Assembly (NCBI GenBank): GCA_015066225.1
Contig: SVOT01000002.1
Span: forward strand, 124,001 to 188,000
DNA: 64,000 bases
From: Oscillospiraceae bacterium
GTDB lineage: Bacteria > Bacillota > Clostridia > Oscillospirales > Acutalibacteraceae
Direction of reading: 5' to 3'
Shown here: positions 37,722 through 41,269 of the stretch, piece by piece
Layout: each line of letters starts with the position of its first letter
Numbering within the stretch: position 1 is the first letter of the stretch
Program-made: the position numbers and the translations under genes
The notes under the pieces: generated by a model
Told to the model about the DNA's origin: nothing
Databases searched by the model: none
Seen by the model: the letters and a program-made list of their open reading frames with translations, nothing else

Positions 37722-37755
37722 AACCCCTCTTGTTCGGTTGCGAACAAGAGGGGTT
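37722..37755. terminator. Bidirectional terminator closing EPS block 1
   Basis: A 15-bp perfect stem (AACCCCTCTTGTTCG at 37722-37736 with CGAACAAGAGGGGTT at 37741-37755), loop GTTG. It lies between convergent genes. Confidence 0.9.
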
Positions 37756-37762
37756 ATTGTGT

Positions 37763-39043
37763 TTAATGGCCAAGAATAAATCTGTCAACAACAACACCGA
37801 GGCGTGTGTCGATGAATTTCTTTTTGAGCTTTTCTTTTCTCGTTTTCGGGAGGGGTGCAGGGGACTTAACAACAAATCTCTGCATATCTCCGTCATCAAG
37901 GGTGAAGGGCTGTGCCATTAATATGCCACCCTTGCCCTTAACCTGAAAACGCACATAGCAGGAAATATCATCCTTGAAATCCGCAAGGTTAATAATCGAG
38001 GTTATTTCGCCTTGAACTTCAACATCATCGGATTTTATGATTTTTCCGTCGGCAATCCATTGAATTGAGGTGCAGCTTTCTGCCTTTACGGTGATGGTAT
38101 CATTTTCGTCATCTACATTGATTTTGGTAACCACAGGCACGTCACCCTCAGCCCTGAAATCCTCGCCTAACTCCAATTTTGCGTGGCGGGCAACAGCAAA
38201 GAATGTGCCCGTTTCCATTGCTTTTCTGAAGATTTCTTCATTATATTCGGGAAGAACGAAGTCCATAAACGCTTCGTCTGCGTGCTTTGTTTCGTGGGCA
38301 TCGCTGTTGCCGAAGCCCCATACGCTGCGCTTACCCTCGGGTATAAGCCTTTTGAGAAGATTATCCCACAAAATTCTGTCGCAGTAGTTGACAATATCGT
38401 AAAGATTGAGGACTTCAATTCCCAGACAAGAGGGATATTTTCTTAAAATATCGGCAAAAAAGGCGATGTTTTCTTCTTTGTCGGCACAGTCGGGGTATTT
38501 AATCGCCTGCAACCAATCGGTGGGATGGTTGATGTGTGAAAGTCCACCGCTTTCGTGTATTTTTCTGACGGGTGTTTCAAAGTCGTTTTCTTTACCACAT
38601 ATATTCTCGGTTCTGTCGTCGGTAAAGTAACCGTTTACGTGGTTTTTAACAAGAGTGAGCATATTTGCTTCAATAGCGTTTGTAACGCTATTCATACCCC
38701 TCTGTTTTGTTCTTTTACCTGCGGGGGTTTTATATGTACCGTCAAGAATTTCCTTGTATTGCTCGGTTGTTATATGCCTTCTTTTGCCGTGCCAGAGATT
38801 CTGAAATTGATAAAGGGGAACAAGAGTGGGCTCCTGATCCCAAGGCTTTCCGAGAAGTCCGTGCTCCGCAAAGGCGAGAATATCAAAATCAAGGTCATAG
38901 AAGGCGTTGATCATTGTGACCATATCTTCATTTGCGTCGCTGTAGGTTGAGTGGGTGTGAAGATTGGTTTTGTAATGATTTTCTTTGTTGCCTATAAGGC
39001 CTTCAACACTTTTGTATGGATTGGAGATTTTATAAATGCTCAT
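37763..39043 (-). CDS. PHP-domain metal-dependent hydrolase with C-terminal beta domain
   Basis: 426 residues. PHP motifs: TNLHTHSTYSDANEDM (HxH), FAEHGLLG, GGLSHINHPTDW and GFGNSDAHET. Family members are phosphoesterases or nucleases with three metal ions. After about residue 290 an all-beta region follows (ITVKAESCTSIQWIADGKII, YVRFQVKGKGG), suggesting an added Ig-like domain. No signal peptide is visible. AGAGG precedes the ATG. It is the last gene of a minus-strand operon, 11 bases after tadA-luxS. Confidence 0.8.
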   Translation of the reverse strand: MSIYKISNPYKSVEGLIGNKENHYKTNLHTHSTYSDANEDMVTMINAFYDLDFDILAFAEHGLLGKPWDQEPTLVPLYQFQNLWHGKRRHITTEQYKEILDGTYKTPAGKRTKQRGMNSVTNAIEANMLTLVKNHVNGYFTDDRTENICGKENDFETPVRKIHESGGLSHINHPTDWLQAIKYPDCADKEENIAFFADILRKYPSCLGIEVLNLYDIVNYCDRILWDNLLKRLIPEGKRSVWGFGNSDAHETKHADEAFMDFVLPEYNEEIFRKAMETGTFFAVARHAKLELGEDFRAEGDVPVVTKINVDDENDTITVKAESCTSIQWIADGKIIKSDDVEVQGEITSIINLADFKDDISCYVRFQVKGKGGILMAQPFTLDDGDMQRFVVKSPAPLPKTRKEKLKKKFIDTRLGVVVDRFILGH

Positions 39044-39054
39044 AAATCAACCTC

Positions 39055-39993
39055 TTAATATATCATATCGGCAGTTGTCCAGCCTTTGAGAACCTCAGCC
39101 TGGTCAGCCGCTTCTTTTTTTGCACCGTCAAGGTCGTGGTCACGGTAGTTGCCGCATTCAACAGCACTCACACCGGGAACATCGCCCTCAAAATCCTTGA
39201 TAAAATCAAAAGCCTGCTGTGTCAGCTCAAGGGCTTGCTTATGGGTTATGCCTGTTGTGAGAAAATAGAAGCCTGTTCTGCAGCCCATAGGTCCGAAATA
39301 AACAATGTTATTTTTCAACTTACTGTTGCGAACATAGGTTGCAAAAAGGTGCTCAACTGTGTGAATTGCGCCGTTTTCCATAACCTCCTCAACATTGGGG
39401 CGGCGGGTTCTTATATCGTATGTAACAACGTCACCGTCAATTCGGGAGATGTACATTCCCCTCAAAAGCTTTGTGTGGTCAACATTGAAGCTGTCAATTC
39501 TTTCCATTTGTGTATTCTCCTCATTATGTTTTGCTGTAATTTTATTTTTGTTCCGAAGAGCTTCGAAAAATGATGTCAGAACGTCGGCACAGTCCTCTTC
39601 CATAAATCCGCCAAGGTATGTTGGTCTGAAGCTGAAATCAGAGTTGAAAAGATTTACAACCGAGCCACAGGCACCGTTCTTTTTGTCGTATGCACCAAAA
39701 ATCACGTTTTTAATACGTGAATTGATAATTGCTCCCGCACACATGGGGCAAGGCTCAAGGGTTACATACAAATCACATTCCCAGAGCCGCCAACCGCCAA
39801 GTCTTTTGCAAGCCTCGTTAATAGCTTCAATTTCGGCGTGGCAAAGAGCATTTCTATTTTTTTCACGGCGGTTCTTACCCCTGCCGATGATTTTATCACC
39901 GATTGTGACAACTGCCCCCACGGGGACTTCACCGTCACAGGCGGCTTCTTTTGCAAGGCGCAAAGCCTCAAGCATAAAACATTCTTTGTTCAT
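39055..39993 (-). CDS. tadA-luxS: In-frame TadA-LuxS fusion: tRNA adenosine deaminase plus S-ribosylhomocysteine lyase
   Basis: One 312-residue frame. Residues 1-150 are TadA, which makes inosine at tRNA wobble position 34: HAE at 52-54 (zinc His, proton-shuttle Glu), PCPMC at 81-85 (zinc Cys82, Cys85), and the normal C-terminal helix (DVLTSFFEALRNK). Residues 163-312 are a full LuxS, which splits S-ribosylhomocysteine to homocysteine and the autoinducer-2 precursor: HTVEH (zinc His211, His215), CRTGFY (catalytic Cys238) and Cys280 (zinc). The join of about 12 residues (KITAKHNEENTQ) is where tadA should stop. Met163 is a typical LuxS N-terminus with its own ribosome site. No ribosome site precedes the tadA ATG, one base after the upstream stop. 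Confidence 0.9.
   Translation of the reverse strand: MNKECFMLEALRLAKEAACDGEVPVGAVVTIGDKIIGRGKNRREKNRNALCHAEIEAINEACKRLGGWRLWECDLYVTLEPCPMCAGAIINSRIKNVIFGAYDKKNGACGSVVNLFNSDFSFRPTYLGGFMEEDCADVLTSFFEALRNKNKITAKHNEENTQMERIDSFNVDHTKLLRGMYISRIDGDVVTYDIRTRRPNVEEVMENGAIHTVEHLFATYVRNSKLKNNIVYFGPMGCRTGFYFLTTGITHKQALELTQQAFDFIKDFEGDVPGVSAVECGNYRDHDLDGAKKEAADQAEVLKGWTTADMIY
39505..39521 (-). promoter_or_regulatory. Internal ribosome site and start codon for LuxS
   Basis: On the minus strand AGGAG (39521-39517) is nine bases before ATG (39507-39505), which encodes Met163 of the fused frame. The resulting MERIDSFNVDHTKLL is a standard LuxS start, so free LuxS of 150 residues may be made as well. Confidence 0.65.
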
Positions 39994-39994
39994 A

Positions 39995-41203
39995 TCAATA
40001 AGCTGTGGGCGTTGTTGAAAGACCTGAAATTGCTTCTATTGCGAAAATGACTATGGCAATTACCATAGCAGGTGTACCAAAGAATTTACCTACCTTTGTG
40101 GAGGTCTGGAGCTCTGTGCCGATTCCTCTGTCGTTTAGTATGTTTTCTTTTTTGAAGCGTGCCATATAAAGAATAAAGCAAAGAATGCCAAGGCATATAC
40201 CGCCGACCATAACAGCCGAATAGAAGGTGTTTGCGGCATCCTCGCTTACAAAAGCCATAAGAACGGATGAAACGCAGGATACACTGTTCATTAATGCGTG
40301 AATAATAACGCCCACCCAAATGCTGCCGGAGGAAATTACGGCATAGCCCAAAAACAGGCCGCAAAGAATTGCAAAGGGCATCTGCACGGCGTTGCCGTGG
40401 AAAATACCGAAAAGCAGAGCTGTTGTGATTATGGCAAAAGCGTTGCCGTATTTTTTCAGCGCGCTGAGAAGAACGCCTCTGAAAGCGTATTCCTCAACAA
40501 GTGGAGGGATAATTGCCGTTGCCACAAACATTAAAACAGCGTCGAAAACGGTTTCGGGGTGTTCAATAGCAGAATAATCTGAATAAATGCCTATCATTTC
40601 GGCAAAAATGCGCAAAAAGGTTGTGACGTAGTTTGCAAGCAGACAACCCGCAAAGCCGATAAATACAAGTAAAAATGCCTTGATGGGGTTTTGTGGCTTT
40701 TCGTATGCAATAGCAGGCTTTACAGGTGTTTTTCCCAACATTTTTGAAAGAATAAAGAAGGGCAAACCGATTGAAAATAATGAATAGAATACGTAAAACC
40801 CGGTGCTGAAGGTGAAGCTTTCGTTATAAAGCTTGTTGAGAGAAGGCACCCAAAAAACAAAGCCGGTAACAGTTGCCAAAGCAAGAAGAATCAATAGTGT
40901 TACACCCGTGAAATTTCCGACACGGTTAAGAATTTTTGAATGCTTCGTTCTTTCAATGTGATACTGGCGGCGTGCATCTATATATTGCTGGTTTACAAAG
41001 GGTTGTTGAACGCCGTAATGGTATTGAGGAACATATCCCGGATTTGTATATGACGTCTGAGCCGTGTTGCCGGGTGGGGTGGGTTGCGGCTGCGAAAAAG
41101 CGGGCTGATATACCGGTGGCATTTCAGCAGGCTGTTGAACAGGCGTAGCCTCAGGATTAGGTGTTGTGTTAGATATGTTTTCGTTCTGGGGTATATTATC
41201 CAT
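39995..41203 (-). CDS. CPBP-family intramembrane metalloprotease
   Basis: 402 residues. A long Pro/Gln-rich cytoplasmic N-terminus (1-80) precedes about eight membrane helices. Conserved CPBP motifs: PPLVEEYAFRGVLLSAL (EExxxR, near residue 237), LFGIFHGN (second His region) and VIIHALMNS. Relatives include Rce1 prenyl-protein proteases and bacterial proteins linked to bacteriocin immunity or peptide processing. Its target is unknown. First gene of a three-gene minus-strand operon with tadA-luxS (one base apart) and the PHP gene; GGGAGAG lies before the ATG. Confidence 0.87.
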   Translation of the reverse strand: MDNIPQNENISNTTPNPEATPVQQPAEMPPVYQPAFSQPQPTPPGNTAQTSYTNPGYVPQYHYGVQQPFVNQQYIDARRQYHIERTKHSKILNRVGNFTGVTLLILLALATVTGFVFWVPSLNKLYNESFTFSTGFYVFYSLFSIGLPFFILSKMLGKTPVKPAIAYEKPQNPIKAFLLVFIGFAGCLLANYVTTFLRIFAEMIGIYSDYSAIEHPETVFDAVLMFVATAIIPPLVEEYAFRGVLLSALKKYGNAFAIITTALLFGIFHGNAVQMPFAILCGLFLGYAVISSGSIWVGVIIHALMNSVSCVSSVLMAFVSEDAANTFYSAVMVGGICLGILCFILYMARFKKENILNDRGIGTELQTSTKVGKFFGTPAMVIAIVIFAIEAISGLSTTPTAY

Positions 41204-41240: not shown

Positions 41241-41269
41241 ATTATAACAATTATTTCGTCAAATATCAA
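41241..41269 (-). promoter_or_regulatory. Predicted promoter of the CPBP / tadA-luxS / PHP operon
   Basis: On the minus strand TTGATA (41269-41264), a 17-base spacer and TATAAT (41246-41241), ending 37 bases before the ATG. Confidence 0.7.

Follow-up and report, generated by a model that had tools for sequence, protein, structure and literature searches.

A tadA-luxS fusion gene with a retained internal luxS start, conserved in a bacterial genus and predicted to give two products

In the window, i.e. the whole 64-kb stretch of DNA analysed here, tadA and luxS form a single open reading frame, and the same arrangement is found in other genomes of the genus. The fusion of TadA and LuxS is real. 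The one gene probably gives two products, a TadA-LuxS fusion, which would be the sole form of TadA found, and a free LuxS, translated from a luxS start kept inside the frame. An essential decoding enzyme is here joined to an unrelated enzyme of the methyl cycle and of signalling, both being homodimers, and the old start is retained within the gene. We know of no pathway step shared by the two activities.

Layout of the fused frame

The open reading frames of the window place tadA-luxS on the minus strand, from 39993 to 39055, as 312 codons followed by a stop. The features of the region are reported below, with residue numbers referring to the fused protein.

39055..39993, minus strand: fused tadA-luxS frame; the same open frame is present in 12 of 22 genus genomes
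39553..39993, minus strand: TadA part, residues 1-147, identified by motifs, Pfam, structure alignment and model
39832-39840 and 39739-39753, minus strand: TadA zinc motifs HAE (residues 52-54) and PCPMC (residues 81-85)
39508..39552, minus strand: linker, residues 148-162, 15 codons, stop-free in fused species
39517..39522, minus strand: Shine-Dalgarno-like GAGGAG ahead of the internal luxS ATG, translated in the fused frame as Glu-Glu
39505..39507, minus strand: internal in-frame ATG (Met163), the normal luxS start, retained by 11 of the 12 genomes with the fusion
39055..39507, minus strand: LuxS part, residues 163-312 and stop, identified by profile matches and residue alignment
39349-39363, 39280-39282 and 39154-39156, minus strand: LuxS HTVEH (residues 211-215), Cys238 and Cys280
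39995..41203, minus strand: gene for a CPBP/Rce1-like membrane protease, upstream of tadA and ending one base short of its ATG
37763..39043, minus strand: downstream gene with an HTHSTYSD motif, whose start lies 11 bases beyond the luxS stop
41241..41269, minus strand: promoter-like site before the CPBP gene, matching 11 of 12 consensus bases, with TG before the second hexamer
37722..37755, no strand assigned: terminator-like hairpin of 15 pairs after the downstream gene, a consensus match only

A sequence-only reading had proposed a complete TadA followed without a stop by a complete LuxS. The frame was confirmed to be open, both domains were matched, and HAE, PCPMC, HTVEH, Cys238 and Cys280 all lie at the residues where they had been placed. 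The catalytic and zinc residues of both halves, held to be intact, are present in the window gene, and both sets are kept in 11 of the 12 fused species. The claim of a single joined product stood only in part: the fusion is real and conserved, but the internal luxS start, with its ATG at codon 163 and GAGGAG before it, had been missed, so that LuxS is probably also made as a separate protein.

Identity of the two halves

Residues 1-147 match a TadA-type deaminase domain (Pfam, 136 bits against a cut-off of 27), which contains the HAE and PCxxC motifs for zinc binding and catalysis. The best-scoring deaminase equivalog for this half is the NCBIfam TadA model NF008113, at 136 bits, below its cut-off of 150. 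Residues 3-156 align to the solved TadA 7cph with an E value of 2.5e-44; among solved structures, TadAs are the nearest. Because of this best equivalog and these nearest structures the first half is named TadA, with reserve for the missed equivalog cut-off. An AlphaFold2 model, based on TadA rows only (31 of 77 named TadA stretches), has high confidence in the TadA half and is confident for most of the linker, through which the last predicted helix (residues 132-168) runs; the LuxS half is poorly modelled, because the alignment contained no LuxS rows.

E. coli TadA is described as an essential homodimer in PMC3711424. In the genome of the window, whose assembly is listed as 95% complete, no second TadA was found beyond a weak 54-residue deaminase match. 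The gene for the substrate, tRNA-Arg(ACG), is present (G000:C6:53813-53886), as detected by ARAGORN, which was run on 30 of the 43 tRNA matches of this genome.

Residues 165-299 match Pfam PF02664 with 167 bits (cut-off 27), and the NCBIfam model for S-ribosylhomocysteine lyase, NF002604, scores 174 bits, above its cut-off of 158; LuxS proteins are the nearest solved structures for the second half. In a residue alignment using 50 of the 85 rows found, the others being repeats or unlabelled, the window protein has HxxEH, the metal-binding cysteine, Phe7, and also Cys84, Ser6 and His11 (B. subtilis numbering), the last three of which we take to be characteristic LuxS residues. HxxEH, the metal ligands, Glu57 and Phe7 follow PMC2656534, which also places the LuxS active site between the subunits of the dimer, the partner chain supplying a Phe. 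A second LuxS was not found in the genome of the window. A Pfs-type nucleosidase (TIGR01704), the enzyme preceding LuxS, was matched in all 22 genus genomes, above cut-off in 21, by a model that also matches 12 of 14 control genomes and is not strictly specific.

Distribution of the fusion

One open frame runs through both proteins in 12 of the 22 genus genomes, namely G000, which holds the window, and G003, G004, G006, G007, G008, G012, G013, G014, G016, G017 and G020; the other fused genes are 57-85% identical to the window gene. In five species (G002, G011, G015, G018, G021) luxS comes immediately after tadA and a stop separates the two, while in three (G009, G010, G019) the genes lie apart. 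Neither gene was found in G001 and G005, whose assemblies are 81-82% complete.

These counts bear on the nature of the lost stop. A sequencing or assembly error, or a stop lost in one strain, was excluded, as 12 separate genomes carry the fusion, and the probability left to an assembly or sequencing artefact is negligible. A stop in related genomes, which the sequence-only reading had named as the sign of such an error, does occur in the sister group of five species, yet the open fusion is common to 11 species besides that of the window. In G006 two equal-scoring copies of the fusion lie on contigs C29 (L011) and C54 (L120), probably as a result of assembly redundancy.

The database search proposed for the TadA-LuxS architecture found no fusion outside the genus among the matches listed. 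In 398 genomes of the family, seven of them belonging to the genus, the full-length fusion was seen only in five genus members, and in 398 genomes of the phylum only in the genome of the window, in both cases among the stronger matches, those listed; among weaker matches no such fusion would be expected. Outside the genus, a long linker would split such a fusion into a pair of adjacent matches in these searches. No LuxS was found at 80 loci with the TadA pattern, among the matches listed in a scan possibly not including the relatives of the window. At one locus of another genus (L155, G045:C18, 1770-3167), luxS lies on the opposite strand, about 250 bases or less after CPBP-tadA.

Genomic context

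A distance of one base from the CPBP stop to the tadA start suggests translational coupling; the CPBP gene probably heads the operon and gives rise to this coupling. CPBP adjoins tadA in 19 of 20 genomes, the twentieth, G021, having a short contig. Within the genus, CPBP proteins are 31-46% identical to that of the window, against 63-86% for TadA, yet the position of the gene is kept. The downstream gene has no Pfam match and is presumably PHP-like, as judged from its HTHSTYSD motif.

The promoter-like site before CPBP is a consensus match only. The region contains 10 promoter-like sites, no more than the 7.8 expected by chance (sd 3.0) would allow; terminator-like sites number 8, against 4.1 by chance (sd 2.0). 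On the same strand, within tadA-luxS, a weak terminator-like site (39720-39702) lies in tadA, and a promoter-like match of 9 out of 12 bases lies at the tadA start. Because of these two sites other transcripts of tadA-luxS are possible.

The linker and the open frame

Linker length ranges from 14 to 16 codons, and linker sequence varies, among the 11 fused species that carry the internal Met. No stop occurs in any of the 11, and all length differences are of whole codons; the same linkers, read in the other two frames, contain stops in 3 and 8 of the 11 species. Neutral simulations, run at the linker's own rate or at the third-position rate, with the branch lengths that ran off for G006 and G004 capped at 0.5 or 1.0, gave an expectation of stops in 5.2-5.9 of the 11 species, which are related and not independent, and a probability of 0.001-0.004 for none. 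At half rate, stops were expected in 3.6-4.6 of 11, and their absence had a probability of 0.02-0.04 (0.004-0.08 for single settings).

In the five unfused sister TadAs the stop comes six codons beyond the Leu-Arg that ends the last helix, while the fused proteins run for 14-16 codons to the luxS ATG; the fused linker is therefore longer than the unfused tail. Taken with moderate confidence, these patterns suggest that the joined frame is under selection.

The most recurrent linker residues, Lys/Glu-Glu-Asn, are the translation of the Shine-Dalgarno-like site. Given a short linker, rich in lysine and of variable sequence, and a CPBP-type protease gene directly upstream, the joined protein might be cut in the linker to give separate enzymes. 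CPBP, however, lies beside tadA in unfused species too, and its presence is therefore no sign of processing; moreover, no conserved cleavage motif was seen in the fusion alignment, and the predicted TadA helix extends through the linker. Cleavage is, on this evidence, very improbable.

The internal luxS start

The ATG at codon 163 and a Shine-Dalgarno-like site, lying within -15 to -9, are found in 11 of the 12 fused genomes. The site is weak in G007; in both G006 and G007 it is nearer the ATG, although still present. The pairing energy at the junction ATG averages -8.25 kcal/mol, versus -3.2 at other in-frame ATGs, and none of 20000 random draws was as low as the junction mean, the species not being independent. 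Ranked by Shine-Dalgarno strength, the junction ATG is the best in-frame ATG in 6 of the 11 species, and the second or third in the other 5. Eight luxS starts of unfused relatives have similar values, from -6.8 to -11.4 kcal/mol; tadA starts show almost no Shine-Dalgarno pairing (+3.4 to -4.3). Since the luxS start and the site before it are kept in 11 of 12 genomes, LuxS is probably also made separately from the internal start.

The G016 fusion and alternative readings

The one fused copy without the internal start is that of G016, in which the frame is still open. Only this copy lacks Ser6, Phe7, His11, Glu57 and Cys126, present in 49 of 49 other aligned LuxS; of 36 columns invariant in the other sequences it has changed in 15 and kept 21, and it scores 82.5 bits as LuxS, versus 178 for a second copy in the same genome. 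This second luxS, on contig C126 (L037, L154), is of a different type, has all catalytic residues and groups with the LuxS of G045, from another genus of the family; the G016 assembly is listed with 4% contamination, and the C126 gene may be foreign. The fused LuxS half of G016 may be either a structural relic or a product of slow decay. G016 was not accepted as proof of a retained scaffold, as the 21 of 36 invariant columns kept also fit slow decay.

Two alternatives to a gene with two products have to be weighed against these data. It may be that the joined protein alone matters, the internal luxS start being a relic of the former gene pair. The conserved frame and linker length would agree with this, as would G016, open without an internal start; however, the Shine-Dalgarno-like site and the ATG are kept in all 11 other species, despite strongly varying linker residues, which makes a dedicated fusion unlikely. 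Alternatively, the loss of the stop may have been harmless, with the LuxS from the internal start doing the work and a tolerated read-through form not under selection. The conservation of the internal start is consistent with this, as are the half-rate probability for the absence of stops and the decaying LuxS tail of G016, seemingly tolerated by its TadA; but about half of the linkers should by now contain a stop, and neither the whole-codon length differences nor the excess of the fused linker over the unfused tail would be expected. A harmless loss is accordingly given a small probability.

The two-product reading remains the probable one, although the stop at the same place in the sister clade of five counts against it. 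An ordinary tadA-luxS pair would have become a two-product gene by losing the intervening stop. Ribosomes would enter at tadA, probably via re-initiation after CPBP, and read-through across the linker of 14-16 residues would give a TadA-LuxS fusion of about 35 kDa; other ribosomes would initiate at luxS itself, using the Shine-Dalgarno site and ATG that it has kept, and produce free LuxS of about 17 kDa. TadA halves would pair, allowing the editing of tRNA-Arg(ACG), and LuxS halves would pair mutually or with free LuxS. In the latter case free LuxS could cap the fusion, preventing the polymer chains that two homodimer-forming halves might build. Both proteins, their ratio and the capping are predictions drawn from the sequence.

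A more speculative extension, to which we attach little probability, would make the LuxS half an assembly or sensing domain of TadA: mixed dimers of fused and free LuxS would set the assembly state of TadA, S-ribosylhomocysteine turnover would feed into the decoding of arginine CGN codons, and the half found in G016, devoid of catalysis, would be structural only.

Evolutionary history

Trees were built on five linked proteins other than LuxS, chosen because rpoB is missing from 6 of the 22 genus genomes. The genome of the window, although listed as 95% complete, is among the six without an rpoB match. In the five-protein tree the 17 species with adjacent or fused genes form one clade (support 100/99). 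With G004 left out, the remaining 11 species with the fusion are monophyletic (support 73/90, not starred), while a single clade of all 12 fused species was not rejected (p-AU 0.063). On this tree the fusion needs two changes, either a gain and a split or two gains.

In the LuxS tree G004 groups with G009 and G019, in which the genes are apart (support 72), and this tree weakly favours a separate gain of the fusion in G004. The fused half of G016 has a long branch beside G007, G014, G003 and G000 (support 96), unlike in the five-protein tree, which places G016 at the base; the LuxS of G010 falls outside the genus. Genes for dUTPase and ZapA face CPBP-tadA also in G009 and G019, where luxS is elsewhere; G010 has CPBP-tadA without dUTPase and ZapA in the 16 kb examined. 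Because the dUTPase/ZapA-CPBP-tadA block is present in species with luxS elsewhere, luxS would most simply have moved in behind tadA.

The genus contains every stage: genes at separate sites, neighbours divided by a stop, fusions with an internal start, and a fusion whose LuxS half has lost catalytic residues. It provides a natural series for studying why operon neighbours fuse, whether an internal start makes the fusion of two homodimers tolerable, and what becomes of a domain once its activity has been taken over elsewhere.

Comparison with known systems

A literature search, covering few subscription papers, found no description of a TadA-LuxS fusion, in line with the sequence-only reading, to which none was known. 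A paper on rumen AI-2 that combines LuxS and domain architecture was discarded, as its available text concerns receptors and not a fusion.

Separate tadA and luxS genes, which species of the same genus also have, encode proteins to which both halves are related over their full length, with the usual zinc and catalytic residues retained; the differences are the missing stop between them and a TadA found only with a LuxS tail. Ordinary fusions of operon pairs, as in bifunctional enzymes, join adjacent genes through the loss of a stop. The loss of the stop between neighbours is common to the present case, in which, however, each partner is a homodimer and the former ribosome-binding site survives inside the frame.

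An endolysin gene that encodes two polypeptides (PMC9430671) offers a published parallel to this genetic layout. It gives a full-length protein and its C-terminal part, the latter from an in-frame internal start, with one shared stop, and the short and long forms can co-assemble, as is only predicted for LuxS. The endolysin combines catalytic and wall-binding domains, whereas tadA-luxS joins two independent metabolic enzymes and its second product is predicted. Neither the parts nor the coding trick is new; their combination appears to be.
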